From the NCBI GenBank assembly GCA_001312645.1, contig BBEG01000007.1:1-45190 (forward strand): 45,190 nucleotides of DNA, given 5' to 3'. A program made the position numbers and the translations under genes. Position 1 is the stretch's first letter. Each line of letters begins with the position of its first letter. This DNA is from Rhodococcus sp. JCM 9791 (GTDB lineage: Bacteria; Actinomycetota; Actinomycetes; Mycobacteriales; Mycobacteriaceae). Positions 20,544-41,326 of the stretch are shown piece by piece. Below the pieces are notes generated by a model. It saw only the letters and a program-made list of their open reading frames with translations. It was not told where the DNA came from and did not search any database.

Positions 20544-20577
20544 CCGGTCCCACCACCCGATAGCCGAAAGGCCGACG

Positions 20578-23602: not shown

Positions 23603-23690
23603 TCTGGACTGTCGTGAGTTGACGGCCGCTGCATCTCGAGCTGAGTGGGACCTTCCAGAGAGAACCCGGCATCATCTGCCGCCCCCTGTA

Positions 23691-23714
23691 CTTCTAATCA
23701 TTGCAATGTTAGAA
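23691..23714. promoter_or_regulatory. Inverted repeat upstream of the second alcohol dehydrogenase
   Basis: TTCTAA(T)CATTG faces CAATG-TTAGAA with one bulged base, 35 bases upstream of the ATG at 23750. It is AT-rich, unlike its surroundings, and could be an operator overlapping the promoter. Confidence 0.45.
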
Positions 23715-23749
23715 AGTGCACTATCGCAACTCTCGATCAAGGAGTGCAC

Positions 23750-24942: not shown

Positions 24943-25992
24943 GTGAACGATTTCGAACTGTCATGCGGACTGCCGCCAGGCCCGGATTTCGCAGACTTGG
25001 CGGTGCTGGCCGAAACACTCGGCTATGCACGCGTGTGGGTTTTCGATTCGGCTCCACTCTGGGAAGACCCCTTCGTGCACCTCGCACTTGCTGCGCAGCG
25101 CACGAGCCGAATCGGCCTCGGTACAGCAGTTCTCATCCCTCAGCAACGATCAGTGATGGCCATGCGTCGGCGATCGCCACCGTGGCCCGGGTGTCCGGAA
25201 ATCGGTTCCGACCCTGCTTCGGCACCGGCTTCACCGCCCGCCTCATGATCGGGCAGAGACCATGACCATCGCGGCGCTCGGCGATTACCTCACTGCTCTT
25301 CGCACGCTACTGGCCGGGGAAACTGCAATCGTCGACGACAAGCCGGTCCGAATGATGCACTTCGACGGGCTCACTGCCGACCGCCCTGCCGATGTGCACT
25401 GTGGCTGAGCGCATTCGGCCCCAAGGGAACATCCCTCGCGGCAGAAGTTGCCGACGGGGTGATCGGGCCTCCCGGTTCCGGGGTGCCGGCCTCGATCCTC
25501 GTTTCCGGCACGGTTCTTTCGGAGGGAGAAGATCCGGATTCCGAACGTGTCCGCGAGGCGATCGGACCGTGGAAGGCTGTCGATTGGCACAGCACCTACG
25601 TATGGGGCGGCGCCGACGCCGTCGACGCCATACCGGGCGGTATGAGCTGGCGGAAGTCGCTCGAGGATCTCGGACCGGAAAGCGAAAGACACCTCTGGAT
25701 CTATGAAGGCCACGCCACTCACCTCACCGATCGCGATCGACAGGTACTCGAACAGATCACCACAGAGGCCACCGGAGCCCAGGGCAGCAATCCTGCATAT
25801 GACGACGTCAAGACCATTGTGGCCGACGAGAAAGAGGCAGGTCGGCAGCTGCAGAAGATCGCTGCCCGCGGGTACGGCGAGATCATCTACACCCCCAGTG
25901 GACCGGATGTCGCGGGCGAGCTTCGCCGCTTCGCCACAGCCCGCCCGGCACCCTCCCTCACACCGCGACCGGAACCTCGGGGGCAGGCTTAG
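24943..25992 (+). CDS. LLM-class flavin/F420-dependent oxidoreductase (frame-broken)
   Basis: Bacterial-luciferase-like TIM barrel: LETLGYARVWVFDSAP and TSRIGLGTAVLIPQQRS near the start, then ATVARVSG, GTGFTARLMIGQRPMTIAALGDYLTALRTLL and LWLSAFGPKGTSLAAEVADGVIG. Three single-base losses (about 25163, 25262 and 25400) must be restored, giving about 350 residues. The GTG at 24943 has AAAGGAG about ten bases upstream. Such enzymes use FMNH2 or F420H2 for hydroxylation, Baeyer-Villiger or reduction steps. It lies 75 bases after the alcohol dehydrogenase and probably belongs to the same operon. Its 3' end overlaps the convergent transporter gene by 35 bases. Confidence 0.82.
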
Positions 25993-26945
25993 CCAGCCGA
26001 CCAGCAATCGCAGCGCAGATGAGCAACTGGAGTTGGTGGAACAACATCAGCGGCAACACGATCAGCCCGATCGGCTGACCCGCGAACAACACTGTAGCCA
26101 TCGGCAAGCCGGTCGCAAGCGACTTGGTCGACCCGCAGAACAGGATCGTCGCGCGATCTTCGGCTGCGAATCCGAGTCGAGGCGCCATGTACCAGGTGGA
26201 CGCAAGGACGATCGCAAGGAGCACACTGCACGTCACCACGAGGGCAAGCAATCGAGGGATCGAGATGCTCGACCAGATTCCTTCGTTCATGCCGCGACTG
26301 AACGCGACGTACACGACGAGCATGATCGAGCCTCGGTCGACGATCTTGAGGGGACTGCTGTGCTCTTTGATCCATGTACCGATCCAGCGGCGAGCCACCT
26401 GCCCCGCCACGAACGGGACGAGCAGCATTGCCACGATATCGATCACTGCCCCCGCGCTCATGGTCACGCCCTGAGAGGTCATCAGCGCTGCGACCAGCAA
26501 CGGCGTGAGAACGATCCCGAGCAGACTCGACGCGGAGGCGCTCACGATCGCGCCCGGGATGTTTCCGCGCGCGACCGACACGAGAGCGATCGCCGATTGC
26601 ACGTCGACGGGAGCACGCAGAGGTACAGCACTCCGAGATAGAGCGGGTCGTTGAGGAACCACGGTACGAGCAGTTTCGCAGCGATACCAGAACGGGGAAC
26701 ACGATGAACGTCGTGACGAGGATCGTCACGTGCAAACGCCAGTGCTTGAGTCCTTCGATGGCCTCAGTCGTCGACAGTTTCGCGCCGTAGAGGAAGAACA
26801 GCAGTCCGATCGCGATCTTGGACGCCCAGCTGAATCCGCTCAGGACCACGCCGTCGGCGGGTAGGAGCGCGGCTACGCCGACGGTGACGAGAATGCCGAC
26901 CAGGAAGGGGTCGAGCCGGTTCAGGAGGGGGACCTTCGTGAGCAT
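25958..26945 (-). CDS. BASS-family (bile acid:Na+ symporter-like) transporter (frame-broken)
   Basis: About 329 residues with nine to ten hydrophobic helices. FFLYGAKLSTTEAIEGLKHWRLH, YLCVLPSTVQSAIALVSVARGN and FCGSTKSLATGLPMATVLF are typical of the SBF-like branch of the BASS family, whose crossover regions contain the STVQS and CGSTKSLA motifs. Two single-base losses near 26605 and 26688 break the frame. The family imports organic anions such as sulfated steroids, pantoate or 2-keto acids with sodium. It is divergent from a LysR gene, the probable regulator. Confidence 0.85.
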
Positions 26946-27029
26946 GATTCGACGTTAGAGCACCGGCCTATATCCGCGATAGACGATCACCATGGTTACA
27001 GTCATCACGAAACATGATTGAATGCGAGG

Positions 27030-27918
27030 GTGTTCGATCCCATCCATCTGCGTACTTTCCTCGCCGTCGAACGCGATCGGAATTTCAGTGCAGCCGCTCG
27101 ACGACTCGACCTTCGACAATCGACGGTCAGTCAGCACATCGCCAAGCTCGAACACGCAGTCGGTCGCCGGCTGTTCCTTCGGGATACTCACTCGGTCGAA
27201 CTGACAGCGGACGGCAGCGTCATGGTCGGGTTCGCGCGCGAGATCCTCGACCGGCACGAGACTGCACAACGGTACTTCGAGGAGTCGGGAGTCAGTGGCC
27301 GGCTCCGATTCGGAGCCTCCGAGGACCTGGTTCTTCACGACCTGCCCTTGATACTCGCCGAGTTCCGGCGCAGTCACCCCCGGATAGATTTCGAACTCAC
27401 CGTCGCCCTGAGCGAAGATCTGCATCGGAAACTCGAGGACGGCGAACTCGATCTGATGTTCGGAAAGCGCCGACCGGGCGAACGTCACGGTGAGTTGGTC
27501 TTCCGTGATCGACTGGCATTTCTCGCCGCTCCGGACTTCGTACTCGAACCGACCGGTCCGGTGCCACTGGTGACCTATCCCCCGCCGTCCTTGACCCGTG
27601 AGATCGCACTCGACGTACTGCAACGCGAAGCTCAGTGCTCGCATCACGTGCGTCGCAGACAGTTTGAACGGCCTACGCGCTGCCGCCCTGGCCGGACTCG
27701 GCGTTGTTCTTCATGCCCAGCGGTTTCCGCCGTCCGGACTCGAACCGGTACGCACTGCGGGTCGTCGCCTGCCGGACGCCGGTGAACTCGAATTCGTACT
27801 GGTCTCGCGGCGGAGCGTACTGAGCGAGCCGGAGCGCGAACTGCGAGCGGTGATCTTGGCCAATGTCGACCGGCTCAGCTACTCACCACGAGCAAGCTCC
27901 GGAGACGGCCACAACTGA
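27030..27918 (+). CDS. LysR-family transcriptional regulator (frame-broken)
   Basis: The N-terminal winged helix FDPIHLRTFLAVERDRNFSAAARRLDLRQSTVSQHIAKLEHAVGRRLF is a textbook LysR DNA-binding domain, followed by an effector domain starting at GRLRFGASEDLVLHDLPLIL. The frame breaks near 27635, where a net two bases are missing; downstream ITCVADSLNGLRAAALAGLGVV is in a different frame. Corrected length is about 296 residues. The GTG at 27030 gives the usual family N-terminus; a TTG at 27018 is an alternative. The divergent BASS transporter gene is its likely target, and the 84-base gap holds TATCCGCGATA (from about 26972) as a small dyad. Confidence 0.85.
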
Positions 27919-28137: not shown

Positions 28138-28505
28138 GTGACCCACGATGTAACACCGCAGTCCGATAGCCCGCTCCCCGAGGCTTCCTCGATGCCTTCT
28201 GGCAGTACGACACGGCTCTCCTCGCAAACGATGTCGCCCAACTCGACGAGTTGTTCGAGCCGTCGAACCACACGCTGCGCGCCGACGCGAACGCCATCCT
28301 CGAGGGATACACGGCGATCGGCGAATTTCGTGCTGCGCGGCCCGACCGTCCCACCCGTCGTATCGCTCGAGTGTGGACACGAGTACTGGCCGACGACCTC
28401 GTCTACTCCACCGCCGAAGTGCGGTCCGGTGCCGGCGCTGCAGGGCTCCAGACACAGTTGTGGCGACGCACCGACCGCGGTTGGCAGATCACGCCGCGCA
28501 CGTGA
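28138..28505 (+). CDS. AtzH-like NTF2-fold protein (DUF3225 type, frame-broken)
   Basis: About 122 residues after restoring one base near 28185 (GAGGCTTCCTCG read as GAGGCTTTCCTCG). The sequence FLDAFWQYDTALLANDVAQL, DELFEPSNHTLRADANAILE and GYTAIGEFRAARP matches the small NTF2/SnoaL-fold family typified by AtzH, which in cyanuric-acid operons sits beside the AtzF/AtzG amidase. Its biochemical role is not settled; it may assist or assemble with the amidase. The stop overlaps the amidase GTG as GTGA. No AtzG-like small gene (about 65 residues) is present between them. The GTG start at 28138 lacks a clear ribosome site. Confidence 0.72.
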
Positions 28506-29673
28506 CGCCGCCGAGCAAGCCCGTCGAGGGCACAATCTGGCGCGTCGTCGGCGCTCCTCTGGTCGCCGGTGCGAACGCGGGGCCGCTGTCCGGCGGTACC
28601 GTCGCGGTCAAGGATCTCTTCGCCGTAGCGGGCATCGCCCGGTCCGGCGGCGTCAAGGCGTACCTCGCGGAGCAGGAACCGCAGGACGAGTCAGCCGACG
28701 CGGTTCGTCGGCTGCTCGCGGCCGGTGTGTCGGTCACGGGAGTCACGCACACCGACCAATTCGCCTTCGGTCTCGCCGGCCAAAACGCCGACTGGGGCAC
28801 CCCGGTGAACCTGGCCGCACCTACCCGCATTCCCGGCGGATCGTCGAGTGGATCGGCGTGCGCTGTGCGGAACGGGTGGACCAGCATCGGTCTGGGCACC
28901 GACACCGCCGGCTCCATCCGAGTCCCGTCGAGCTACCAAGGGCTGTGGGGATTCCGACCCACACACGGATCGGTCAGCACCGACGGGGTTCTCGCTCTCG
29001 CCCCCTCGTTCGACACCGTGTCGTGGCTGACCCGCGATGCGTCGACCCTCGCCGCCGTCGGAGATGTTCTCCTGCCCGCGGACACTGCGACAGCACCGCT
29101 ACGCGCAGTGTGGTCCAGCGACGTGAACGCGGTCGCTGATCCCGACGTTCAAGAGAAGGTCGAGCATGCAGCTCAGCTGCTCGACGCCGATCCGCTTCCT
29201 CCGCTGCCCGATCTCGCCGAGTGGACTGCGGCCTTCCGTACCGTGCAGGCCCATGAAGCCTGGGCTGAGCACGGCGAATGGCTCACCGCCCATCCGGGGG
29301 CGTCTCCGCCGATGTCGCGGGCCGGTTCGCCGCGGGACGCGATGTGAGCGAAAGGCAGCTTTCCGCCGCGTGGGCGACGATTCGGGTCGCCCGGGCGACG
29401 ATGACCGAACTGCTCGCGGGTAGCTACCTCGTGCTGCCCACCGTCGGTTCGCCCACGCCCCGCGTCAACGCAACCCATGAGGAGGTGGATGCGCACCGTC
29501 AATCCACCTTGCGTCTCACAACTCTTGCGTCGCTCAGCGGTTTTCCGGCCGTCTCGATCCCCGCCCCGTCGCCCGACGACGCACCGCTCGGAGTGTCTCT
29601 GGTGAGCGCGGCGGGCACCGATCGAGGTCTGCTCGACCTGGCACAGCGCGTAGGAAAAGAACTCGGAGTCTGA
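28502..29673 (+). CDS. Amidase-signature hydrolase, AtzF/GatA-like (frame-broken)
   Basis: The Ser-cisSer-Lys triad is visible: Lys in GTVAVKDLFAVAG (about residue 30), cis-Ser in PGGSSSGSACAV (about residue 105) and nucleophile Ser in LGTDTAGSIRVPSSYQG (about residue 130). The strict spacing is that of the amidase-signature family. One base lost near 29295 (CATCCGGGGGCG needs another G) separates the C-terminal 125 residues; corrected length is 390, short for AtzF, which carries an extra C-terminal domain. It cleaves a C-N amide; the AtzH-like partner points to an allophanate-, biuret- or carbamoyl-type substrate. The GTG start at 28502 is coupled to the upstream gene. Confidence 0.85.
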
Positions 29674-29679
29674 TCGGGA

Positions 29680-30398
29680 TCAGGTGCGCCGCATCGAGCG
29701 GCGCACCATCCCGTACTCGGGACCGTCGGGGACATGAGTTTCGTGGCCCCGGTACAAACGCTCGCCGTGCAGTGAGACACCGACGAGGCAGATCGTCAAC
29801 AGCGGGTCCTGTGGCCCGACGGCGAGGACCTCCTGTGTCACCGGATCTGGCAGGACTGGCCTCAACTTCGCCGACTCCCACTCCACCGACATCCCGCGCA
29901 GTGTCTTGACGGACTCGAAAATCGAGTATTCGTCATCGAATTCGATATCGTCGCGACGCCGCGCAGGTACGACGTCCTCGGCGAGAATGAGTGGTCGACC
30001 ATCCGCTAGCCATCGCTTCAGGACACGAAAGCACGGCGCACCGGGGGCCGCTTCGAGGTCGTATGCTTCGTCATCCATCAACTCCGACCACTCGGCGCGC
30101 AGGACGTCGACCTTGACCTCGTATCCCGCCTTCCCGAGTCGTTCGGTCAGTTCATAGCTCTGGTCGATGCGGAAGGGCACCGACATCGCGGCAACATTCG
30201 CGAAGGTGCCTTGGTGTGCGCGCCGGGCGATCAGGCCCTGTCCTTCGAGCTTCACCAGGCTTCGCGCACCATCGGCCGGCTCACACCGAGAGCCTTCGCC
30301 AGTTCGAGTTCGGTCGGAAGCGGAGAGCGTGTGGTCGCGGCCTCGCGCCAGATGCGCTCGAGTTCCACGTCAAACCCGCCGCTTCTGCTGTGCTCCAT
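29680..30398 (-). CDS. GntR-family regulator with UTRA domain (HutC subfamily, frame-broken)
   Basis: The N-terminal winged helix reads LPTELELAKALGVSRPMVREALVKLEGQGLIARRAHQGTFAN, and the UTRA effector domain follows with APCFRVLKRWLADGRPLILAEDVVPARR and GHETHVPDGPEYGMVRRSMRR. One base lost near 30255 (GAAGCCTGGTG needs another C) splits the helix-turn-helix; corrected length is 239, as usual. The start at 30398 follows a G-rich stretch. A perfect GTCTAGAC palindrome, the core of many HutC/DasR-type operators, lies 39 bases upstream and suggests autoregulation. By position it probably controls the surrounding catabolic cluster. Confidence 0.85.
29683..29707. terminator. Hairpin overlapping the end of the GntR gene
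   Basis: GGTGCGCCGC and GCGGCGCACC pair perfectly over ten bases with an ATCGA loop, ten bases after the amidase stop and inside the last codons of the convergent gntR. It could terminate both transcripts; no U-tract is seen. Confidence 0.55.
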
Positions 30399-30436
30399 TG
30401 ACTTCCAACCCCCTGTCAACGCCATGGACGAACCGA

Positions 30437-30444
30437 GTCTAGAC
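30437..30444. promoter_or_regulatory. GTCTAGAC palindrome, probable GntR/UTRA operator
   Basis: Eight-base perfect palindrome in CGAGTCTAGACGTAC, 39 bases before the gntR start. HutC/DasR-type regulators bind GTCTAGAC-centred sites. I saw no second copy elsewhere in the window. Confidence 0.6.
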
Positions 30445-30574
30445 GTACGGAACGCAACTACTCGCGCGCGCAACACGAACGTCACAGTCAGGATATCGAT
30501 CGGTTACGACGTCGTCTTACCGTCTGATCAACACTAACGGCCAGTGAAAGAAGGTGGCGATGACCGAGCACAGC

Positions 30575-31351
30575 TCACCGCTCGAGGCTGATCTCACCGC
30601 TATCCCACGAGCACGTGTACACATCGGGAAGCGTGCCACCTTCGATTGCGGTGCGCACGAGTTTGTCGAGAACCGGTGTGATCGCCGATCGCAGACTCGC
30701 CGTGTCGTCGCCTACGGGCGTGAGGAACCCGTACGTCGCCGCTCCCAGGTCGCGGGCGACCGCAGTGGCGACTGATCCGGGAGCATCTGCCGAGTGTGCA
30801 ACGAGCTCGCATCCGAGATTCTCCACCAGAATCCTTCCGGTGGATCGACCTTCGTCTGCCGCCAGGAAGCTCGAGAGATACAGCACATTGACGCGGCGAG
30901 CCGGGTCCACGGCCGCGACGCCGCGCACGAACCCCGCCGCAGCACGTTGCTGAGTCGGCACGGGTGGTCCTGCGACAAAGCCGATGGATCCTCTGACTTC
31001 ATGCGCGGCAGCGCGTCCCGCATGCTCGGCACCGAGCCACCAGCACCAGTCGATCATGGTGACGCCGGGCGGAGTGGTGAATGTCGCGGGGTTGTCCGTG
31101 TATTCGGTGGGCACGTCGGACAGGATGATCGAACGCCGCCCGTCGGCCAGACGATGCGCGTCGTCGAGGTACTGGATTCCATGCAGGACCAGGACATCAC
31201 ATTCTTGAACGGTCTCGTCCAGCTCGCCAACCACGACGTAGGGGTCGAAACCCACGTCCCTCCAGACCCTCGACGCATCCCACGCCCCGTCCAACCATCC
31301 GGCATCGCCACCGGTCGCCGGTACCACCAGCCCGATCCGTGTGTTCTCCAC
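30575..31351 (-). CDS. BMP/PnrA-fold periplasmic-binding-type protein without signal peptide
   Basis: 258 residues, intact. It opens directly on the first strand, VENTRIGLVVPATGGDAGWLD, and later has RGSIGFVAGPPVPTQQRAAAGFVRGVAAVDPARRVNVLYLSSFLAADEGR and DLGAATYGFLTPVGDD, the pattern of the basic-membrane-protein (BMP/PnrA) binding family. Those proteins are normally lipoproteins of ABC or nucleoside importers, but here there is no signal peptide or lipobox. Extending to the TTG at 31384 adds only MKSKELECECT, not an export signal. A cytoplasmic ligand sensor or carrier is the simplest reading. It is divergent from the reductase gene at 31407 with a 55-base gap. Confidence 0.72.
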   Translation of the reverse strand: MENTRIGLVVPATGGDAGWLDGAWDASRVWRDVGFDPYVVVGELDETVQECDVLVLHGIQYLDDAHRLADGRRSIILSDVPTEYTDNPATFTTPPGVTMIDWCWWLGAEHAGRAAAHEVRGSIGFVAGPPVPTQQRAAAGFVRGVAAVDPARRVNVLYLSSFLAADEGRSTGRILVENLGCELVAHSADAPGSVATAVARDLGAATYGFLTPVGDDTASLRSAITPVLDKLVRTAIEGGTLPDVYTCSWDSGEISLER

Positions 31352-31406
31352 GGTGCACTCACACTCCAGTTCCTTGGATTTCAATCACCCGAAGTTAGGA
31401 TAAACA

Positions 31407-32557
31407 TTGTCAATTAGCTTGCCTATCATAAAATCCTGTCCCAAGTCGATGCGCATCGGCCCGTGCGGAGGTGTGTTCACCGATGGTGGTTGCGAGATTC
31501 GTCCGGACCACGGCTGTAGCTTCCTCGACCCCGCTCAGCACGCCGTTCGCGCGACCGACGAAGCAACGTTACTTCCCGTCGAGAAGGCTCCGGTCCGCCG
31601 CGCGTCGGAAAGCCGTCTGAAGAAGGCTCTCGACAGCGGACGATTCGCGATCATCGCCGAGGTGAACGGCGCAGACAGCTCCAGCGCAACGGAATTCGTG
31701 GATTCGGCCCGGGTGGTCGCCGGTGTCGCGGATATCGTCTCCATCACCGACCACTCCGGCGCGAACGTCCACATGGGCAACATCGCCGCGACCGCTCACC
31801 TCCGTAACGCGGGCCTCGATGTCATGCCGACGTTCGGGTGCCGCGACCGCAATCGGATTGCGCTTCAAGGCGATCTTCTCGGCGTGGCAAGCTTGGGTGT
31901 GCGCAACGCACTCATCGTCACCGGTAATCACGTGGAGGTCGGCGATTCTCCTCATGCACGACCGGTTTTCGACCTCGACAGTCCCCGCCTCCTGGCCATC
32001 GCCGACCGGCTGCGGAACGAGGGCCTGCTGGACAACGGCCGCGCGGTGGAAGTGGCACCGGATCTGTTCCTCGGTGCGTCGTGCATCCGTTCGCTCCGCC
32101 GTATGACGACCGTCCCCGTCAGGCCATTCGGAAGGTGCGAGCGGGCGCGGACTTCATCATCTCCCAGCATATTTTCGAGCTCCCTCGCTGGCGCGTATTC
32201 ATCGCCGAGGTCAACCGGCTCCGTGCCGACGAACGGCCGTTCCACATGCTCGGCGGAATCGCGATCATGCCCAGCGAGCAGATCGCGCGGCAGGTCAACG
32301 CCGGCCTGCGCGGGTTCTCGATTCCCGAGTCGCTGCTGACGCGCCTACGCCAAGCCAAGGATCCGCAGGACGAGGGCCTCGAGATCGCTGCGGAGATGCT
32401 TACCGAACTCACCGAGACCGAAGGAGTTTCAGGCTGTCTGCTGGCACCGGTCACCGGTCGCCAGAATGCACTCGCTGCATCGGTAGAGCAGTCCGAGCTC
32501 ATCACCGAGGTGCGCCGCCGCGCCGGCATCCCCGTCCAGACCGGAGCTCTCGCATGA
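31407..32557 (+). CDS. Methylenetetrahydrofolate reductase-family protein with Cys-rich N-terminal extension (frame-broken)
   Basis: Residues about 10-42 read SCPKSMRIGPCGGVFTDGGC and then CSFLDP, a four-Cys motif of the MTHFR C-terminal-like (MetV-type) family, here placed in front. From about residue 65 a TIM barrel follows with RFAIIAEVNGADS, SITDHSGANVHMGN, LIVTGNHVEVGDSP and GADFIISQHIFELPRW, the MetF fold that interconverts methylene- and methyl-tetrahydrofolate. One base lost near 32088 (ATCCGTTCG read as ATCCCGTTCG) splits it; corrected length is 383. The TTG start at 31407 has AGGA six bases upstream. Its stop overlaps the next ATG as ATGA. In a catabolic cluster it may oxidise methyl-folate from demethylation; that is inference. 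Confidence 0.82.
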
Positions 32558-33597
32558 GCCGCCGGGTCATGAGCGTGACCGGCCCCGTCGACGTCGACGA
32601 CCTGGGCGTGGTCATGCCGCACGAGCATCTCATCGCCAATGCCCACTCGCAGTGGATCTACCCCGAGAACCGGGACGACCTCGCGCATTACACCCAGCCG
32701 TACTCTGCGACGCTGCACGGCGAAGTCCAGCTCGAGCCGTTCTCGTTCCGCTCCGCGATGCAGCAGCTCGATCTCGACGTCGCCAGGGAAGAACTCGAGA
32801 CGTATCTCGGTGCCGGTGGCGGCACGGTCGTCGACCTCGGCATCCCCGGATTCGGACGCGATCCTGCGGCGCTGAAAGCGCTGTCGGAGCTCACCGGTGC
32901 CACGGTGATCATGGGGTGTGGCGAGTACGTAGAGCATTCGCATTCGCCGTACGTCCGGCATTCGTCCGCCGAGGTCGTACGGGACGTCCTGCTCCACGAG
33001 ATCGAGTTCGGCGTGGGCAATACCGGTGTCCGTCCGGGCATCATCGGTGAGATCGGCACCGGCAATCCACCCACCTCCGAGGAACGTAAGGTGGTGTGCG
33101 GCGCAGCGATGGCCCAGATGGAGTCGGGGCTCGCCCTGAATCTGCATCGGACGATCTTCCCGGACCCGCTCGCCACGCTCCCCCTGGTCGACGAGATCCT
33201 CGATATGGGTGTCGACCCGCGCAAGCTCATCGTCAGCCACTGCGACGAGCGTCCGGAGCCGGAGTTCGCACTCGAGCTCGCTCGCCGCGGGTGTTGGGTC
33301 GAGCTCGACACGTTCGGGATGGAGCAGTGGGCGATGTCTGCGCGTCGAGGAGACGAGTATCCCGATCGCGCGTTCGATCATCACCGGATCGACCTGCTGA
33401 TCCGGCTGCTCGATGAGGCTTCAGCGACCGCGTGCTCGTGAGCCACGACATCGCAATGAAGCCGCAGTTCACGCGATACGGAGGGTGGGGACTCCGGCAT
33501 CTGCTGCACGGCATACGCCCCCGGCTCCGCGCGTGGTGTCACCGACCAGGTGTTCGCCGAGATTACGGTCCGCAACCCTGCGGCCGCACTCGCCTGA
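32554..33597 (+). CDS. Phosphotriesterase-family metal-dependent hydrolase (Php-like, frame-broken)
   Basis: An amidohydrolase-fold enzyme. The metal ligands of the family are placed as expected: MPHEHLIAN (HxH) near residue 30, GIIGEIGTG (bridging position occupied by Glu, as in Php-like proteins) near 170, LNLHRTIF (His), VSHCDERP (His) and VLVSHDIAMK (Asp). Two breaks occur: one base near 33420 (GAGGCTTCAGCG needs another G) and a CG pair near 33533. Corrected length is 348. Family members hydrolyse lactones, esters, phosphotriesters or amides; the physiological substrate is unknown. ATGA coupling to the methylenetetrahydrofolate reductase-type gene implies a shared pathway. Confidence 0.85.
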
Positions 33598-33626
33598 TCA
33601 CCCCACTCCACAACCGAGTACGAGCA

Positions 33627-33657
33627 GAAGCCGCGACCTCGACGAGGTCGCGGCTTC
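33627..33657. terminator. Hairpin terminator after the phosphotriesterase-family gene
   Basis: GAAGCCGCGACCTC and GAGGTCGCGGCTTC form a perfect 14-base stem with a GAC loop, followed by GTTCGT, 29 bases past the stop. Confidence 0.8.
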
Positions 33658-33681
33658 GTTCGTGTCCCATCGAAATGACAT

Positions 33682-33712
33682 GAGGCTCGGCCGGGGATCC
33701 CGGCCGAGCCTC
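33682..33712. terminator. Hairpin terminator for the convergent ABC operon
   Basis: GAGGCTCGGCCGGG and CCCGGCCGAGCCTC form a perfect 14-base stem with a GAT loop, 24 bases past the permease stop on the minus strand. Together with the hairpin at 33627 it insulates two convergent operons. Confidence 0.8.
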
Positions 33713-33736
33713 TCGGTCTTGTGAACTCGTCAGTGC

Positions 33737-34609
33737 TTACTCGTCATCGGGCACCGCCGACTCGTGCCAGCGGTGCAGCACCAACCATTCGAAGAAGCTG
33801 ACGATGCCGAACAGAATCAGTGCCACGACACTCGCCAGCACGACCGCGGCGAACAGCTCAGGTGTGCGGAGCTGATTGGCGTAGTGGGTGATTGCGTAAC
33901 CGAGCCCTCCGGCGCCGCCACCGATTCCGGCCGCGAACTCACCGACGATTGCGCCGATCGCCGCCGAGCTGGCCGCAACCTTGAGGCCCGTCATGATCTC
34001 GGGTAGCGCATGCGGGACACGCAGTGAGAACAACTGCACGCGCGGCGCGGCACCGGCCATGCGGTAGAGCTGAACGAGGTTGCGATCGGTGGATTTCAGG
34101 CCTTGCAGCGTATTGGCCGCGACCGGGAACACCGCCAGCATCGCCGCGACGAGCGTGTTGGTTGCGATGCCGGCTCCGAACCACACCACGAGAATGGGTG
34201 CGACGGCAATGATCGGAATCGTCTGCAGAATAACGAGATACGGATAGACTCCGAGTTCTGCGGTCTTCCAGCGCGCCATGACAAGGGCTGTGGCGAAGCC
34301 GCTGACCACGGCCAGCAGGAATCCGAGGTACGCCTCCTGCATGGTGACCAGGGTCGGTTCGACGAGGTCGGGCGCGCGTTCGATCAGGGCGGTGACCACG
34401 TCCATCGGCGACGGCACCAAATAGGTAGGAACCCCGGTGAAGACCACCGCTGTTTGCCACAGGACGAGGGCAAGGACCGCGAAGGCAACCGGAATCACAA
34501 CTTTGCGACCCAGATCCTTCCGCTGTTTCGGCCGTGCAGGCTCCGCCGCCGCGGGTCCGACGTCGGGGACGATGTTCGTGTCGATGGGTGACTGCAGTGT
34601 CTGAGACAT
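33737..34609 (-). CDS. ABC transporter permease, SsuC/ThiX/TauC type
   Basis: 290 residues, intact. A polar N-terminus of about 38 residues is followed by six to seven hydrophobic helices, with GFLLAVVSGFATALVMARWK, PVAANTLQGLKSTDRNLVQLYRMAGA (EAA-type loop contacting the ATPase) and PHALPEIMTGLKVAASSAAIGAIVGEF, typical of the BPD inner-membrane component for small organic solutes. It starts ten bases after the ATPase stop and is the last gene of a binding protein-ATPase-permease operon. Confidence 0.92.
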   Translation of the reverse strand: MSQTLQSPIDTNIVPDVGPAAAEPARPKQRKDLGRKVVIPVAFAVLALVLWQTAVVFTGVPTYLVPSPMDVVTALIERAPDLVEPTLVTMQEAYLGFLLAVVSGFATALVMARWKTAELGVYPYLVILQTIPIIAVAPILVVWFGAGIATNTLVAAMLAVFPVAANTLQGLKSTDRNLVQLYRMAGAAPRVQLFSLRVPHALPEIMTGLKVAASSAAIGAIVGEFAAGIGGGAGGLGYAITHYANQLRTPELFAAVVLASVVALILFGIVSFFEWLVLHRWHESAVPDDE

Positions 34610-34619
34610 CCGTCGCTCC

Positions 34620-35387
34620 TCAGTGGTCGAATGCGAGCAGGCCGGAAATTTCTTGGGTGAGATCGTCGAGCGCAGCGGTGTCCCGGGCGGAGCCGTCCTG
34701 CGTCGGCGGGCTCGGAGAGTCGATCACGCGATCGATACGTCCCGGCCTGGCAGCCATCACCACCACACGGTGCGCGATGTTGACGGCTTCCTGAATGGAG
34801 TGGGTGATGAACAGCGCACTGAACTGCTGCAGACGCCACAGATCCAGTACGACCTCCGACATCTTTGCGCGAGTGAACTCGTCGAGCGCGGCGAACGGTT
34901 CGTCGAAGAACATGATCTCGGGTGAGCTCGTGATTGCGCGGGCCAGGGAAACGCGCATCTTCATGCCGCCGGACAGCTGCCGTGGCAACGCCGACGCGAA
35001 GGGAGTGAGCCCCACAGTCTCGAGCGCGGCTGCAGCCGCAGTGCGACGTTCCACCTTCGGCATCTTCTTCAGCTTGGCGACGAGTTCGACGTTGCTCTGG
35101 ACTGTGCGCCACGCCAGCAGCGTCGGATCCTGGAAGACGTATGCCTGTTCGCTCGCACGTCGGACCAGCTCACCGCTACTGACCTCGGCGAGACCGGCCG
35201 CCATCCGCAGGACGGTGGTCTTACCGCAGCCGGACGGGCCCACGATCGAGACGATCTCTCCCTTCGCGATACTCAGATCGAGTGGCGTGATGGCGTGATA
35301 GCCGTTGCGGAAGATCTTCTCGACGCCGCGAAACTCCAACATGGGTGGCGTTGCCAGTTCGGTCTCTCGGTCCATAACGGTGGTCAT
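34620..35387 (-). CDS. ABC transporter ATPase, SsuB/ThiZ/TauB type
   Basis: About 255 residues, intact. Walker A is GPSGCGKTTV, the Q-loop is AYVFQDPTLLAWRTV, the signature is LSGGMKMRVSLARA, Walker B is IMFFDEPFAALDE and the switch His is in LFITHSIQEAV. The start at 35387 is supported by AGGAG about six bases upstream. It energises the importer encoded by its two neighbours. Confidence 0.93.
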   Translation of the reverse strand: MTTVMDRETELATPPMLEFRGVEKIFRNGYHAITPLDLSIAKGEIVSIVGPSGCGKTTVLRMAAGLAEVSSGELVRRASEQAYVFQDPTLLAWRTVQSNVELVAKLKKMPKVERRTAAAAALETVGLTPFASALPRQLSGGMKMRVSLARAITSSPEIMFFDEPFAALDEFTRAKMSEVVLDLWRLQQFSALFITHSIQEAVNIAHRVVVMAARPGRIDRVIDSPSPPTQDGSARDTAALDDLTQEISGLLAFDH

Positions 35388-35439
35388 TCCTACTCCTCGA
35401 GGTTCGGACGGCAGGGACGGTGTTCCGTCCGCCGACCGG

Positions 35440-36516
35440 TCAGAAGTCGATGTGCTCGTACGTGCCTTCGGGTGCATCGGGGCGGGTTTCGAGCGGGGCG
35501 ATATCTGGGGTAATGGTGAGGTCTGCGATGTCGGCGACGGTCAGATCGTCCGTCTTCAGAACCCCGAGCTTCTTCATCTGCTCGATGAGCGTGGCCCACC
35601 GCTCCTCGGTCATCGCGCCGATCGTGGCTTCGCCTTCGGCGGTGAGGACGTAGTCGCGCTGTGCGTCCCACTCGAACCACAGCAGGTCGGCTGCGAGCTC
35701 CTTGTCGACCTCGTTTATCAGGTAGTCGTTGATCTGCTGAGCGACGTCGATGTCGCCCATGTAGTCACGCCAGCCTTTGTTGCTGGCCTCGACGAAGGCC
35801 TCGACCACGTCGCGGTTGCCCTCGAGGTAGTCGTCGGTGACGTACGTGACGGTGTTGTAGGGGTTGAAACCGGTATCGGCGAACGGAAGGAACGTGACCG
35901 CAAGATCACCTTCCTTGTGGGCGACGTACGGTTCGTTGACCGCGATTCCCTGCTGCACCAGCGTGTCGTCGCGAATGAAGTTGGCGAGGCTGCCGGTGTA
36001 CTGCATCTGCTGGAAGTCGATGCCGTATTCCTGCTTGACCCACTCCGGTCCGAGGACGCCCGCGGAGTTGACCCAGGACATACCGTCGGTGTCCTCGAAG
36101 GTGTCGATTCCGGAATCCGCGTGAACCATCATTCCGGTGATGCTCTTCTGAATGATCGCGTTGACTGCCTGGAGCGGGATGCCCTCGTCCTGGGCCTGAA
36201 CGATCTCGTTGGCGCCGCTACCGGTGATGCCGAAGTCGGCGCGCCCCGATGCGACGAGCTGGGTACCCGACACCTGCGGGCCGCCCGGTTCGATCGTCAC
36301 ATTCAGGCCGGCTTCCTCGAAGTAGCCGAGCTGCTGCGCCGCATAGAATCCGCCGCTTTCGGCATTCGGGTACCAGCCGAGTACCACTGTCACGTCGGTC
36401 AGGCCGCTGTTGGAAGGGGTATCTGCCGCCGAGTCGGTCGAGCATGCAGACAGAGCAAGGACGGAGGCAAGGACGGTGGCTGTCACAGCACGTTCCCGGG
36501 TCTTTCGATTGAACAC
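35440..36516 (-). CDS. NMT1/THI5-like ABC substrate-binding lipoprotein (ThiY/RibY type)
   Basis: 358 residues, intact. Signal peptide and lipobox VLASVLALSACST, then VTVVLGWYPNAESGGFYAAQQLGYFEEAGLNVTIEPGGP, the hallmark of the NMT1/THI5 group that binds pyrimidine, riboflavin or related ring compounds and also nitriles and sulfonates. GADFGITG-like GRADFGITGSGANEIV and EWVKQEYGIDF follow. It is first in the importer operon and divergent from the cupin-creatininase operon, which strongly suggests that it brings in that operon's substrate. Which ligand it binds cannot be read from the sequence. Confidence 0.9.
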   Translation of the reverse strand: MFNRKTRERAVTATVLASVLALSACSTDSAADTPSNSGLTDVTVVLGWYPNAESGGFYAAQQLGYFEEAGLNVTIEPGGPQVSGTQLVASGRADFGITGSGANEIVQAQDEGIPLQAVNAIIQKSITGMMVHADSGIDTFEDTDGMSWVNSAGVLGPEWVKQEYGIDFQQMQYTGSLANFIRDDTLVQQGIAVNEPYVAHKEGDLAVTFLPFADTGFNPYNTVTYVTDDYLEGNRDVVEAFVEASNKGWRDYMGDIDVAQQINDYLINEVDKELAADLLWFEWDAQRDYVLTAEGEATIGAMTEERWATLIEQMKKLGVLKTDDLTVADIADLTITPDIAPLETRPDAPEGTYEHIDF

Positions 36517-36841
36517 GCAATTCTCCTCAATGGAACGGCACCTGAAAGCGCCACTGAACCTTTCGGCTGAAGCGATCGTAAAACCACGTCGTAACGCGAT
36601 CTTCTCGCTCGCATTACGCCCGGATGTCGTGTGTTAATTCCCTGAGCAGGAGGGCTTTTCGGATTCAGTGTCAGACTCGCCCTCGACCGAATCAGGTGAC
36701 GGCGCCCACAATTCTCTCCGGGGAGTAAACCTCGTGTTACGAGTCATTTACATCGTCGTCAGACACCGATGTCCATGTATACGGTTGCGTTGCGGCGCGA
36801 TCGGAGTATCCGCGTCAGCAACCCTCGAAAAGGAGATCATC
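36517..36841. promoter_or_regulatory. Divergent promoter region of importer and hydrolase operons
   Basis: About 325 bases with no credible gene. I see CTCGT-GTT-ACGAG (about 36729-36741), the only neat dyad, followed by an AT-rich ATTTACATCG; and AAAAGGAG just before the cupin GTG. No GTCTAGAC copy is present, so control by the nearby GntR here is not shown. Confidence 0.45.
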
Positions 36842-37306
36842 GTGGCAGACGCCCCCACCGTGAAGAACATCGAAGACTTGACGGCACGCCTCATTTCGCC
36901 AACGGACGCGGTCAAACTCATCCCGCTGGCGGGGCCGAGCGACGGGTCACCGACAAGTGTGTTCTTCGAGGTCTGGGAGCCGGGCGGTGCGCAGCCCGAC
37001 AATTCCCACCCCGACTCGGTGGAGATCTTCATCGTGCTGTCCGGCGAAGCCGAAGCGACGAGCGACGAGCACACCACCCCTTTGCGGCAGGGCGATGTCC
37101 TCATCCTCACCAAGGGATCGGTGCACAAGATCCGCAATACCTCTGCGACAGAACGACTTTATACGGTGACGATCATGACGGTCGACAACGAAGGGTCCAT
37201 GCCGCACGGATTCGAACACCTCGTAGCAGCCGGCACACCCACGACCCTCGACGACGAAGACAAAGCAGCACTCTTTGCCCGATACCTCCCGCAGGTCACC
37301 GCGTGA
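36842..37306 (+). CDS. Small cupin-domain protein
   Basis: 154 residues, intact. A single cupin barrel with NSHPDSVEIFIVLSGEAEAT (motif 1: His, Glu; the His-x-His is reduced to one His) and GDVLILTKGSVHKIRNTSA (motif 2, His). A single metal is likely, with fewer ligands than usual. AAAAGGAG precedes the GTG at 36842. It is first in a tightly overlapping operon (GTGA overlap with the creatininase gene). Likely roles are an isomerase, a ring-opening auxiliary enzyme or a sensor; the family does not decide. Confidence 0.83.
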   Translation: MADAPTVKNIEDLTARLISPTDAVKLIPLAGPSDGSPTSVFFEVWEPGGAQPDNSHPDSVEIFIVLSGEAEATSDEHTTPLRQGDVLILTKGSVHKIRNTSATERLYTVTIMTVDNEGSMPHGFEHLVAAGTPTTLDDEDKAALFARYLPQVTA

Positions 37307-38105
37307 CGAAACAGATCCTTCTCTCCCATCTTTCGACCACTCGAATCGCCGAGCTCGACCACGACACCACCGTGTGCGTGCAGCCGATCGGTGCCGTCGA
37401 ACAGCACGGCCCCCACCTGCCGGTTGCCACCGACTCGCTGCTCGCGGAGTACATTGCCCGCCACGCAGCAACGCAGAGCACCGCGCCCGCGTGGGTTCTT
37501 CCGACCCTGTCGTACGGCACATCGAACGAGCATCTCGGATGGACCGGCACCGTGTCACTCGACACCACAACGCTTCTCGCGGTGTGCCGCGACGTAGCAC
37601 GGTCGGTACGGGCATCCGGCTTCACTCGGCTCGTGTTCGTCAACGGACACGGTGGACAGACGCATCTCCTGTCGATGGTCGCGCGGGAGATCCACATCGA
37701 ATTCGGTCTGCACGTGGTGAACGTGATGCCCGGCCAGCTCGGGGAGCCCGACGGCGTCGTCGTGTCCGACGCAGAATGGGGAATCCACGCGGGCGAGCTC
37801 GAGACGAGCATGATGCTGCACGTCGCTCCCGAACTTGTGGACATGAGTGCCGCAGTCGCCGGCGGCCACGAAGCACACGAACTCTTCGACACGTCACCAC
37901 TGCTCACCATCGAGAACGGCATCTCGCCCGCCTGGATCACCGATGATATCTCCCCCGGCAACGGAGTCATCGGAGATGCCCGCCACGCCTCGGCCGAAAT
38001 CGGCAGGGCCGTCATCGAATTCCAGGTCGCGCAGCTCGCCAAGCTTTCGCCGAGATCAGCACCTTCGCGTTCCCGCCCGCCCGTTCCGCACTCCGAGGAC
38101 ACTGA
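37303..38105 (+). CDS. Creatininase-family amidohydrolase (frame-broken at the 3' end)
   Basis: About 267 residues. The metal-binding signature PIGAVEQHGPHLPVATDS (Glu, His, Asp), FVNGHGGQTHLL and the second-metal Glu in GIHAGELETSMM are all present, as in creatinine amidohydrolase and its relatives (ArfB, MftE). These enzymes open cyclic amides or remove formyl groups. One base lost near 38043 hides the true end: corrected reading gives LAEISTFAFPPARSALRGH and a TGA that overlaps the next ATG. The GTG start overlaps the cupin stop (GTGA). It is the probable ring-opening candidate of the operon. Confidence 0.88.
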
Positions 38106-38857
38106 TGGCCCACCGGCAAACCTGGATCCGCACCACCGATCATGTCGACCTGCACCCCACTCCACCGGCACCCCGACGCGTGGACCTGCCCGCACTCCCC
38201 CAGTCCATCACCGTCGACATCACCCGCGCAGCGCTCGTCGTCATCGACATGCAGAACGACTTCTGCCACGAGAACGGTTGGCTCGGAAGCATCGGCGTCG
38301 ACGTGAATGGGCCACGCTCCGCAATCGCGCCGTGCGCAGCCCTCACGGATACGGCCCGCGTGGTGGGCATGCCGGTCGTCTGGGTCAATTGGGGTAACCG
38401 CCTCGATCTCGCTAATCTTCCCGCGGGCGTCGTGCATGTCTACGACGGCGACGGATCCGGCGGAGGCATCGGCGACACGGCGGGACACAGCGTTGCGGTG
38501 TTGACCCGCGGGAGCTGGGGTGCCGCGGTGGTCGACGAACTGACCATCGGCGAAGGAGACATCTGCGTCGACAAGTACCGCATGAGCGGCTTCTTCGACA
38601 CCGAACTCGACAGCGTGCTCCGGCTGCACGGCATCGACACCCTGTTCTTCGCCGGCGTGAATGTCGACCAGTGCGTCCTCGCGACCCTCACCGACGCCGC
38701 GAGTCTCGGCTACAACGTCGTCCTGGTCGAGGGCGCATCGACCACCTCCTCCCCCGAATACTGCCTGGACGCAACGTTGTACAACACTCGCCAGTGTTTC
38801 GGCTTCACCGCCGACTGGCACGAGGTGGCGACTGTACTCGAGAAGGAGGCGCAATGA
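38105..38857 (+). CDS. Isochorismatase-like cysteine hydrolase
   Basis: 250 residues, intact. The catalytic triad of the family is visible: Asp in ALVVIDMQNDFC, Lys in ICVDKYRMSGFFDT, and Cys in FFAGVNVDQCVLATLTDAASLGYN, with the usual cis-peptide before the Cys region. Relatives include N-carbamoylsarcosine amidohydrolase, biuret hydrolase, ureidoacrylate amidohydrolase (RutB) and guanylurea hydrolase, all acting on carbamoyl or ureido nitrogen. Start and stop overlap both neighbours by one and four bases, so translation is coupled. By context it removes a carbamoyl or amide group after ring opening. Confidence 0.9.
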   Translation: MAHRQTWIRTTDHVDLHPTPPAPRRVDLPALPQSITVDITRAALVVIDMQNDFCHENGWLGSIGVDVNGPRSAIAPCAALTDTARVVGMPVVWVNWGNRLDLANLPAGVVHVYDGDGSGGGIGDTAGHSVAVLTRGSWGAAVVDELTIGEGDICVDKYRMSGFFDTELDSVLRLHGIDTLFFAGVNVDQCVLATLTDAASLGYNVVLVEGASTTSSPEYCLDATLYNTRQCFGFTADWHEVATVLEKEAQ

Positions 38858-40232
38858 TCGCTCGCAGCGCATCGCTCCTCGTCACCAATGCACTCCTGAT
38901 CCCCGTCGACACCGACCAGCCTGATTACATCGAGAACGGCTGGATACTGATCGAGGACGGTGTCGTCACCGATCTGGCTCCGGCATCCCACCCGCCGTGG
39001 ACCCCGAAGTCGAACGCCTCGACTCCGGCGGCCACATCGTCGCGCCCGGCTTCGTCTCGTCGCACAGTCACCTGTTCACCAGCGGCCTGCGGGGTCTGGC
39101 CAGCGACGACTCGCTGTACGGCTGGGCCAGCGCCTCCATGGGTGCCACCCGCGATGCCACACCCGACGACATTTACTGGGCCACGACGCACGGTGCCTTC
39201 GACTTCCTCAATGCCGGAGTGACCACAGCCTTCGACTTCACCGATCCTCGGGAACCGTGGGCGGACATGGTCGACGGAGAGCGGTCCACTCCCGACCCCG
39301 CGTCCTTGCGGCCGGTCGACTACATCCTGCGACAGATCGACGCCAAGCACGATGCCGGGATCCGTTTCATCAACGCGACCCGCCCCGATTCCGACATCGG
39401 AACAGCCGACGAAATCCTCGAGCGGTTCCGTCCCACGGTCGACCACCTCGTGGGCCTCGATCCACGGATCGCGCTCGGCGCCGCTGTGACAGGTGGTGTG
39501 CAGTGGGCCGGAACACGGGATGCCGCCGACCACGAAGTGACCCTGATGCGCGAGTTCGGGATCATCAACCAAGCGCATTTTCTCGAAACCGCCGAAGCTC
39601 TCGACCATCAGCTCACCAAGTTCTCTTGGTACGAAGAGGCCGGGGCACTCGGGCCGGACTTCATCTTCGGGCATTTCGTCCAGGCCACGGCCTCGGTCAT
39701 CGAGCGCACCGCGCGGGCCGGTGCCCGCATGAGCTGGCAGGCCACCGCCAATGGGCGACTCGGCTCGGGCGTCGCGCCGATTCCCGAGATCCTCGCAGCC
39801 GGAATCGACGTCGGCCTCGGCTTGGACGATCAAGCGTGTTCCGACCTCGCCGACCCATGGCAGAACATGCGCATCGCCGCCTATAGCGTGCGCGCAGATC
39901 GCCGCGATGCTCAGGCCATCGAGATTCGCCGCGTGCTGGAAATGCAGACGCTGGGCGCCGCGCGCATCATCGGCGTCGACGACCGGGTCGGCAGCCTCAC
40001 CCCCGGCAAGTTCGGAGACTTCGTGCTCGTCGATCCCACAGCCCCCGATGTCGGTCCCCTGTGGAACCCCGTCGACGCATATGTCCTCGCGTGCGGTCTG
40101 CGGAACCTCCGCGGCGTCTACGTCGGCGGTGTGCAGGTCAGCGACGGGATGCGGTGCTCCGACCCACTCGCCCGCCAGGCAGCCGTGGAGATCCGCACCC
40201 GGCAGCACGCCTTCAACCCGGTTCGTCCGTAG
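38854..40232 (+). CDS. AtzA/TrzA/SsnA-type metal-dependent amidohydrolase (frame-broken)
   Basis: About 459 residues. After a beta-sandwich start (LLVTNALLIPVDTDQP) comes the metal motif PGFVSSHSHLFTSGLRG (HxH), then GIINQAHFLETAEA (His), FGHFVQAT (His) and GLGLDDQACSDLADPWQNMR with the metal Asp. This is the subtype with one metal that deaminates or dechlorinates ring carbons (guanine deaminase, triazine hydrolases, 8-oxoguanine deaminase). One base lost near 38990 splits the N-terminal 45 residues. The start is ATGA-coupled to the isochorismatase gene. Deamination of an amino-substituted N-heterocycle is the natural prediction. Confidence 0.88.
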
Positions 40233-40254
40233 ACCTTCGAGAAAGCGACACCCC

Positions 40255-41326
40255 GTGCTCAATTCCGGCATGCTCGATCCCGGCGAGGGGCCGATCCGCT
40301 CCGACCTGTATCTCCCCTCCACCCTCGACCACCTCCTGTGGGGTCGCCTCTCCTCACGAGCAGACTCGCCCGTGCTGTCGATCGATGCGGGCAGCGAGGT
40401 CACGATCGACACGATCAGTCACGAGGGCATCCTCGAAGACCAGGGACGCGACCCCAAATCGTTCTTCGGCTCGCACGGCGTCGACGAGGTGCTCAGCGAT
40501 GCCATCGCATTGGCAGCGAGCGAATATCCGCGAGCGATGGGCGCTGACGGTCCGCACGTCGTGACAGGGCCGATCGAGATTCGCAGCGCGCATCCGGGTG
40601 ACGTACTCGCGATGACGGTCGTGGAAGCGCTTCCACGCGTGCCGTACGGCGTGGTGTCCAACCGGCACGGCAAAGGCGCACTGCCGCAGGAATACCCGCA
40701 TGGAGCCGACGTGTTCAGTGTGTTCGCGTCGCTCGACGAGATCGACCCGACCAGGGCGCGAATGTCCTTCGGTCCCGGTGACACTCGCACTGCGTCGTTC
40801 CCGATTGCCCCGTTCCTCGGAATCATGGGCGTCGCGGTCGATGCCGACGTCCGTCCGCATTCGGTGCCGCCCGGCACCCACGGAGCAACATCGACATCAA
40901 CCTGCTCACCGCGGGGGCGACGCTCTACCTCCCATCCAGGTCCGGGGAGCCCTCGCCTACATCGGCGACCCGCACTTCGCGCAAGGCGACGGTGAGGTCT
41001 CACTCACCGCCCTCGAAGCGTCCCTCCGCGCGACGATCCGGTTCGACGTCATCCCCCGCGAAGAAGCACTGGAAGCGTTCGGCGCACTGATCGGGCCCAT
41101 CGCGGAAACCTCCGAGTACCTCGTCCCCACAGGCCTGGACGAAGACCTCGACATCGCCATGCAGAATTGCGTCCGCGCAGCAATCGGGTTGCTCGAAGCT
41201 CGCTACGGCATGGACCCCCGCCATGCTTACGCCTATCTCTCTGCCGCTACCGATTTCAACATCTCGCAAGTGGTCGATGTTGTGAAAGGTGTGCACGCAC
41301 GAATTCGAAAGGACGGCTTCGCCTGA
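40255..41326 (+). CDS. Acetamidase/formamidase family protein (frame-broken)
   Basis: About 357 residues of the FmdA/AmdA family. Typical elements are VTIDTISHEGI, HVVTGPIEIRSAHPGDVLAMTVVE, FPIAPFLGIMGVA, then HGGNIDINLLTAGATLYLPIQVRGALAYIGDPHFAQGDGEVS. The last stretch requires two restored bases, near 40884 and 40937, both beside short runs. The family hydrolyses formamide or short amides to ammonia and the acid. As last gene of the operon it could release ammonia from a formamide-type end product. The GTG at 40255 follows GAGAAAG. Confidence 0.87.

Follow-up and report, generated by a model that had tools for sequence, protein, structure and literature searches.

The stretch analyzed here, hereafter the window, comprises 45,190 nucleotides of Rhodococcus sp. 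JCM 9791 (contig C7 of a 6.34-Mb draft genome in 947 contigs, 76% complete) and contains, between positions 28185 and 41326, an island of hydrolase and importer genes that forms a conserved, apparently uncharacterized catabolic system, most probably a variant of purine or ureide breakdown. Pfam matches, which cover 20 scanned open reading frames (ORFs), assigned Amidase (in two pieces), UTRA, Bmp, DUF5981 with methylenetetrahydrofolate reductase (MTHFR; two pieces), phosphotriesterase, ABC permease, ABC ATPase, NMT1, cupin, creatininase, isochorismatase, amidohydrolase and FmdA/AmdA (two pieces); gene-caller frames, often wrong in GC-rich DNA, were not relied on. A preliminary description of this DNA had listed six C-N or ring hydrolases together with a cupin, an MTHFR, an NMT1-type importer, a BMP-fold protein and a UTRA-GntR regulator, and we found all of these in the ORFs of the stretch, by Pfam or, for the GntR helix-turn-helix, by eye.

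The island starts with an HpxZ/AtzH-like domain (28185..28490, plus strand) and an amidase-signature hydrolase resembling PRK08310 (28496..29673, plus strand; Pfam Amidase, 4.6e-44), a predicted oxalurate-type amidohydrolase. Both match, in two frames (50% identity over 28185-28490 and 54% over 28496-29341), a single-frame fused gene at locus L013, the unbroken orthologue from genome G025, which belongs to a different genus of the window's family; in the window, frameshifts fall near 28490 and 29300-29340. The AtzH-like protein of the preliminary description is therefore present, recognized by homology to L013 rather than by Pfam, but as the N-terminal part of a fused HpxZ-amidase and not as a gene of its own. 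On the minus strand follows the UTRA domain of a GntR-family regulator (29680..30255; PF07702, 8.9e-13), whose helix-turn-helix appears in another frame just upstream (about 30250-30400, three-frame translation). Further along lie the genes of an ABC importer, also on the minus strand: a permease (33737..34609; PF00528) and an ATPase (34620..35477; PF00005), each 58% identical to its L013 counterpart, and an NMT1/THI5-like substrate-binding protein (35440..36516; PF09084, 9.2e-34, with 117.7 bits against a gathering score of 20.5).

The remaining enzymes are encoded on the plus strand. A small Cupin_2 protein (36668..37306; PF07883; likely start near 36842) is 35-52% identical to five relatives, and its PDB profile matches are generic cupins, including quercetinase, a glyoxylate-induced protein and YlbA. 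Next to it are a creatininase-family ring hydrolase (37300..38145; PF02633, 4.2e-69; 48% to L013), predicted to open a five-membered cyclic ureide and with a reading frame that runs open past the usual end, and an isochorismatase-like cysteine hydrolase (38105..38857; PF00857; 48-54% to Proteobacterial relatives). Inspection of alignments revealed catalytic motifs for both, namely the metal-site motifs in the L013 creatininase orthologue and the D-K-C triad in a Roseomonas relative of the isochorismatase. The row ends with an AtzA/TrzN/8-oxoguanine-deaminase-type amidohydrolase (38857..40232; PF01979; frameshift near 38990) and an FmdA/AmdA-family amidohydrolase (40297..41326; PF03069 in two frames, 48% and 58% to L013; frameshift near 40940), the latter a predicted oxamate amidohydrolase.

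Frame changes interrupt at least six genes: HpxZ/amidase, GntR, MTHFR, phosphotriesterase, the amidohydrolase N-terminus and FmdA (GntR, phosphotriesterase and amidohydrolase as judged by eye). Draft-assembly or sequencing error is a likelier cause than gene decay, since other ORFs in the window look split on inspection too. Apparently split ORFs outside the island encode a peptide-binding protein (20476-22136) and an alcohol dehydrogenase (23645-24659), both named by eye, and an SBF-like transporter (25958-26945), consistent with a frameshift-prone draft.

Co-conservation of the core genes

Frameshifts in a 947-contig draft, together with a phosphotriesterase and a BMP protein that are not conserved, could mean that the island is a set of unrelated neighbors or an assembly artifact. 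We sampled 397 genomes across the order, with cut-offs of E 1e-45 for the creatininase and E 1e-70 for the HpxZ-amidase and FmdA, queries supplied by G025, and hypergeometric statistics that ignore relatedness. Creatininase was carried by 20 genomes, HpxZ-amidase by 37 and FmdA by 48. Creatininase and HpxZ-amidase occurred together in 12 genomes (1.9 expected), within 20 kb in all 12; creatininase and FmdA in nine (2.4 expected), within 20 kb in all nine; and HpxZ-amidase and FmdA in 24 (4.5 expected), within 20 kb in 22. The genome G025 itself holds, in a 13-kb stretch, the UTRA-GntR regulator, HpxZ-amidase, NMT1 protein, ATPase, permease, creatininase, isochorismatase, cupin and FmdA, plus an AtzA-type amidohydrolase that, at 26% identity to that of the window, is no close orthologue.

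We then compared 36 creatininase-bearing neighborhoods from 34 genomes or records, picked by creatininase similarity and searched with window-derived queries at E 1e-8 over 18-25 kb each (the central locus). Twelve of these loci contain an isochorismatase of the window type; among them the cupin is present in 12, the amidase in 11, the HpxZ domain in 11 and FmdA in seven, and none of the four was found in any of the other 24. The co-occurrence search called for by the preliminary description thus finds the core traveling together. The remaining genes are distributed otherwise: AtzA-type amidohydrolase in 9 of 12 isochorismatase loci and 12 of 24 others, NMT1 protein in 5 and 10, permease in 3 and 20, and MTHFR in 1 and 2. 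Close AtzA-type relatives (46-50% identity, at least 345 bits) are found in 18 of the 36 loci, seven with isochorismatase and 11 without. A second count, with longer flanks for 8 of the 36 loci, gave FmdA in 8/12 isochorismatase loci versus 1/24 others, amidase and HpxZ each in 11/12 versus 1/24, MTHFR in 4/12 versus 2/24 and permease in 5/12 versus 20/24.

Because the isochorismatase counts and the permease and AtzA-type counts split between the two groups of loci, we distinguish two linked blocks, one of isochorismatase, cupin, HpxZ-amidase and, in part, FmdA, and the other of importer-based clusters; both are joined in the window, in G025 and in several genomes of family f16. The dedicated importer and the AtzA-type enzyme, counted in the set by the preliminary description, do recur, but they go with the creatininase more than with the isochorismatase block. 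The 12 block loci are not independent of one another: two genera of f16 account for seven, five of which have near-identical creatininases. On a creatininase tree, in which several branches including that of the window are long, the block label takes six changes, at least four of them forced by well-supported branches, indicating that the association was gained or lost repeatedly. Of eight control regions, taken from three of these genomes, two matched the ATPase query and none matched any other. Two genomes, G065 (L021/L028) and G198 (L022/L041), each carry two creatininase paralogues, one with the isochorismatase-cupin-amidase block and one with an NMT1/codA block.

The core grouping is not due to chance. 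With the same core recurring in G025 and across further families and phyla, a collection of unrelated neighbors or an artifact is very improbable and is refuted for the core, the phosphotriesterase and BMP protein excepted. The claim of a single catabolic system for a nitrogen-rich ring accordingly holds, as far as co-conservation goes, for creatininase, isochorismatase, cupin, HpxZ-amidase and FmdA (7/12), and not for those two genes. The phosphotriesterase-family protein (32554..33441, plus strand; PF02126, 1.6e-36; frameshift near its C-terminus), a window-specific passenger or accessory, had no match in the 36 creatininase loci at E 1e-8 and, at E 1e-40, matched one of the 397 genomes, the window's own; it is a local addition outside the conserved set. 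The BMP/PnrA-fold protein (30575..31384, minus strand; PF02608, 1.6e-10), perhaps a sensor or binding protein, lies outside the conserved core and is probably also a local addition, with matches in 0 of 36 creatininase loci at E 1e-8; a protein-to-protein comparison gives 24% identity (E 2e-11) with a BMP protein from a Pantoea cluster. MTHFR homologues (38-40% identity) of the DUF5981-MTHFR gene (31407..32557, plus strand; PF12225 and PF02219 in two frames, frameshift near 32080) occur in 6 of the 36 loci. On these distributions we rejected the MTHFR-phosphotriesterase pair, proposed earlier as a unit. A pterin or folate route, considered from the amidohydrolase and MTHFR, had no matching cluster in a literature search.

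Purine linkage and a candidate pathway

Three lines of gene association point toward purine-derived ureides. In genomes G282, G360, G396 and G278, FmdA and HpxZ-amidase adjoin genes for HIU hydrolase, urate oxidase (Uox), allantoinase (AllB), a class V aminotransferase and an M20 allantoate-type amidohydrolase; in G261 the HpxZ-amidase has a comparable urate-gene setting, and an FmdA relative lies on that contig at a distance of 12 kb. The class V aminotransferase PucG of B. subtilis makes oxalurate from ureidoglycine, and the aminotransferase of such operons would be expected to do the same.

Urate and allantoin genes also lie near the creatininase in three lineages. In G368, 7 to 15 kb separate the creatininase from an operon of urate/allantoin genes with FmdA and HpxZ-amidase. 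The creatininase of G020, a genome from the same family as the window, has HIU hydrolase about 8.5 kb away and allantoinase about 11.4 kb away. In Salipaludibacillus (Bacillota), a creatininase, an NMT1 importer, two cytosine-deaminase-like enzymes and an FAD oxidase sit between OHCU decarboxylase, urate oxidase and HIU-hydrolase-like genes on one side and a class V aminotransferase and an M20 enzyme exceeding the NCBI allantoate-amidohydrolase cut-off on the other; the urate oxidase (271 bits against a cut-off of 168) and the OHCU decarboxylase (198 against 96) are within 9 kb of the creatininase, importer and cytosine-deaminase-like genes. Of 26 cluster-bearing genomes, 25 encode HIU hydrolase, 23 urate oxidase and 25 allantoinase above cut-off, figures that hold for cluster-bearing genomes alone. 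Genes for urate oxidase, HIU hydrolase and allantoinase are present in the window's genome, but on contigs other than this one; the island would thus act in addition to the classical route.

As a third line, extended clusters of relatives add amidohydrolases closest to 8-oxoguanine deaminase (below cut-off), Rieske (VanA_C) and IPNS-like 2-oxoglutarate oxygenases, and a ferredoxin-reductase-type protein. These classes resemble the genes of xanthine-riboswitch (NMT1 motif) regulons as given in excerpts of PMC7373994: NMT1/THI5-like proteins, IPNS-like and Rieske dioxygenases, and guanine-deaminase-like amidohydrolases.

From these associations, the substrate is probably purine-derived, which suggests narrowing the nitrogen-rich heterocycle of the preliminary description to purine or ureide breakdown with an oxalurate-oxamate tail. 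For the locus as a whole we lean toward an island that imports and degrades a cyclic ureide of purine origin or an oxidized purine. The compound would enter through the NMT1-type ABC importer, the AtzA-type amidohydrolase would take off an amino or imino group, the creatininase would open a hydantoin-like ring, and the isochorismatase-like enzyme with the cupin would remove or rearrange a ureido group. The HpxZ-amidase would then convert oxalurate, or a close acylurea, to oxamate, and the FmdA-like enzyme oxamate to oxalate and ammonia. The GntR/UTRA protein would regulate the island, and, should the substrates include methylated purines, MTHFR may capture the one-carbon units. Support is stronger for the tail than for the head, which is conjecture: an oxalurate-oxamate ending seems slightly favored, and the order of the ring-opening steps is tentative.

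The tail resembles the Klebsiella Hpx oxalurate branch, HpxWXYZ, in which HpxW has a gamma-glutamyltransferase (GGT) fold. NCBIfam labels HpxZ an oxalurate catabolism protein, and excerpts of PMC12625717 give HpxY as oxalurate amidohydrolase and HpxW as oxamate amidohydrolase. Like that branch, the island has an HpxZ-like domain and an amidase-signature enzyme, and its frameshifted HpxZ domain shares 41-45% identity with the HpxZ proteins of relatives in Roseomonas and Paraburkholderia, which at 207.8 and 208 bits exceed the family cut-off (NF033625, 135). Unlike it, the island has a PRK08310-like rather than an AtzE-like HpxY amidase (PRK08310, the best NCBIfam match, at 272 bits on the broken ORF and 376.2 on the unbroken L013 protein against a cut-off of 391; AtzE family, 163.6 against 461 for the L013 protein), and in the scanned orthologues from Actinomycetota this amidase is fused to the HpxZ domain. 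The island also adds creatininase, cupin, isochorismatase and importer, and an FmdA-type enzyme would stand in place of HpxW. No HpxW-type (GGT-fold) oxamate amidohydrolase was seen among the 20 Pfam-scanned ORFs, the rest of the genome not having been searched for one; the FmdA-like enzyme would fill this step, where Rhizobium and Variovorax relatives hold a GGT-type gene instead. Against the formamidase family (NF045496, cut-off 500), the C-terminal FmdA piece of the window scores 25.5 bits and unbroken relatives 79.5 and 75.3, and in our scheme the predicted oxamate step replaces the release of formamide-type ends suggested before. The earlier remark that no known pathway has the whole set needs qualifying because of this Hpx-like tail, although we found no paper describing the gene set in the open-licence PMC literature (subscription papers lay outside the search).

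Several observations weigh against this purine-ureide reading. At the thresholds used, the window itself holds no urate, allantoin or purine-oxidation gene, so that, compared with the uricase-allantoin operons, the upstream genes are missing next to the island. Urate or allantoin genes are near the creatininase in just 3 of 36 loci, a count whose queries were partly drawn from the loci counted, and among 13 creatininase-less HpxZ-amidase loci the urate set is present in five, the aminotransferase and M20 enzyme only in one (G121) and neither in seven. The fused HpxZ domains of the orthologues score 82.6, 59.1 and 68.7 bits against the cut-off of 135, and the importer is loosely coupled to the block (permease 3/12). 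Rfam scans of the window (22-45 kb) and 21 loci found two tRNAs only and no riboswitch; the NMT1 motif, in the excerpts of PMC7373994, is reported from Proteobacteria only, with no creatininase mentioned. Isochorismatases occur without the block on Streptomyces, Rubrobacter and Deinococcus plasmids (L089, L093, L094) and in L096 and L097, and the S. meliloti creatininase is isolated from such genes. Two further points, the PDB relatives of the NMT1 protein and the role of AtzH, bear directly on other substrates.

The best PDB match of the NMT1 protein is an unnamed binding protein (4nmy), and most of its named PDB relatives are pyrimidine-precursor proteins. Together with RutB as the best PDB and NCBIfam match of the isochorismatase, and with extended clusters that carry cytosine-deaminase-like enzymes (below cut-off), RidA and NAD(P)H-dependent oxidoreductases, this would fit a pyrimidine-type system that imports a thiamin-pyrimidine (HMP-like) or uracil-like compound, deaminates it, and opens and decarbamoylates the ring as in Rut. 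We consider such a system unlikely: the isochorismatase scores 133.9 bits against a RutB cut-off of 377.95 (TIGR03614), no other Rut-type gene is among the ORFs assigned, and linkage to known pathways, where seen, is to urate and allantoin genes. HMP catabolism, kept as a rival, found no support in literature searches or in the Rfam scans (same stretches), which showed no thiamin pyrophosphate (TPP) riboswitch.

After RutB, the isochorismatase's next PDB relatives are a 'biuret hydrolase' and related cysteine hydrolases, and an AtzH-like domain is present with an AtzE-related amidase; AtzH, in excerpts of PMC6219798, serves cyanuric-acid breakdown. The island could on these grounds act on acylureas of the triuret, biuret or cyanuric-acid kind, with a TrtA/BiuH-like isochorismatase and an HpxZ-amidase for carboxybiuret-like compounds. 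The triuret/biuret pathway comprises TrtA, TrtB, BiuH and AtzF (excerpts of PMC7948467 and PMC12625717), and, as in some island relatives, a BMP-type importer occurs in it: the latter source describes nitrifier triuret contigs with BmpA-NupABC and one metagenome-assembled genome with biuH near a creatininase. However, the isochorismatase scores 123.6 bits against 370 for BiuH (NF050097), no AtzF- (allophanate hydrolase) or AtzD-type match was found in the ORFs scanned, the island has a creatininase and FmdA, and the urate-allantoin operons with FmdA would be left unexplained, so we hold this a shade less likely still than a pyrimidine substrate. The isochorismatase belongs to a clade that scores well below both the RutB and the BiuH cut-offs.

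A creatininase-family enzyme, an isochorismatase and an amidohydrolase in one locus also recall creatinine or N-methylhydantoin catabolism, with an AtzA-type deaminase and an isochorismatase resembling N-carbamoylsarcosine amidase. This is quite improbable: the creatininase equivalog (TIGR04448) gives 111 bits, short of its cut-off of 235, the 20 ORFs scanned include no match to creatinase or sarcosine oxidase, and HpxZ-amidase and FmdA would have no role. For the mycofactocin protein MftE (TIGR03964) the score is 130.7 bits against 172, also below the cut-off but by a smaller margin.

Returning to the purine-ureide reading, its most novel form would be an undescribed aerobic route for an oxidized purine or its cyclic ureide. 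Here a creatininase-family enzyme would open the ring in place of allantoinase, isochorismatase and cupin would together process the ureide, and the oxamate amidohydrolase of Actinomycetota would belong to the FmdA family; we regard this as possible, if on the doubtful side. Candidate substrates include rings resembling guanidinohydantoin or parabanate, and N-methylated purines, the last because MTHFR and a Rieske oxygenase recur. If right, the purine-ureide reading as a whole would give testable functions to families that are poorly annotated so far (one clade each of creatininases and isochorismatases, a small cupin, and FmdA-like and HpxZ-fused amidases), offer a candidate oxamate-hydrolysis gene where no enzyme of the known type was seen, and suggest a second way to mineralize purine nitrogen, in Actinomycetota and on Proteobacteria plasmids.

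Relatives beyond the order and neighboring genes

The creatininase-isochorismatase association extends to Alpha- and Gammaproteobacteria. A Roseomonas plasmid carries in a row isochorismatase, cupin, creatininase, ABC importer, amidase (506 bits, cut-off 391) and HpxZ, and a Pantoea plasmid carries creatininase, a BMP-type importer, cupin, isochorismatase and amidohydrolase. Window proteins are 53-54% (isochorismatase), 37-38% (cupin), 37-40% (creatininase), 47% (N-terminal part of the amidase), 41% (HpxZ domain) and 32% (amidohydrolase) identical to those of Roseomonas and Pantoea. Plasmids of Rhizobium, Variovorax and Paraburkholderia combine a BMP importer, isochorismatase and amidase but have no neighboring creatininase. 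The Rhizobium and Variovorax plasmids also carry a gene annotated as gamma-glutamyltransferase (300 bits against a cut-off of 358 in Variovorax), and the Paraburkholderia plasmid carries AtzE and HpxZ. The Rubrobacter isochorismatase likewise adjoins a gamma-glutamyltransferase. In a phylum sample, isochorismatase was found at E 1e-55 in 4 of 261 genomes, the window's among them; two of the other three lack the block, and G458 has adjoining cupin, amidase and Rieske and IPNS-like oxygenases without a creatininase.

FmdA relatives occur on Palleronia and Acinetobacter plasmids without the cluster, the Palleronia one with two amidases and xanthine-dehydrogenase-family genes within 9 kb, and on a Rhodococcus plasmid FmdA adjoins an amidase without a creatininase. 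At L078, L079, L081 and L082, FmdA and HpxZ-amidase-type genes stand beside FCD-GntR-like regulators, cytosine-deaminase-like enzymes and ABC importer genes, again with no creatininase; this arrangement is another uncharacterized variant. Creatininase relatives were found in 166 plasmid records, 128 of them from Rhizobium. Plasmids of Rhizobium, Nitratireductor and Mameliella (L033, L084, L085) carry a compact cluster of creatininase, ABC importer, cytosine-deaminase-like enzyme or amidohydrolase, and FAD oxidase, with RidA in L033 and L085.

In the window, a LysR-family regulator (27018-27785, plus strand) lies directly upstream of the island and could control either the island or the SBF-like transporter. 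Just past the island end, a 543-residue membrane-protein-like ORF without a Pfam match occupies 43021-44652 on the minus strand.

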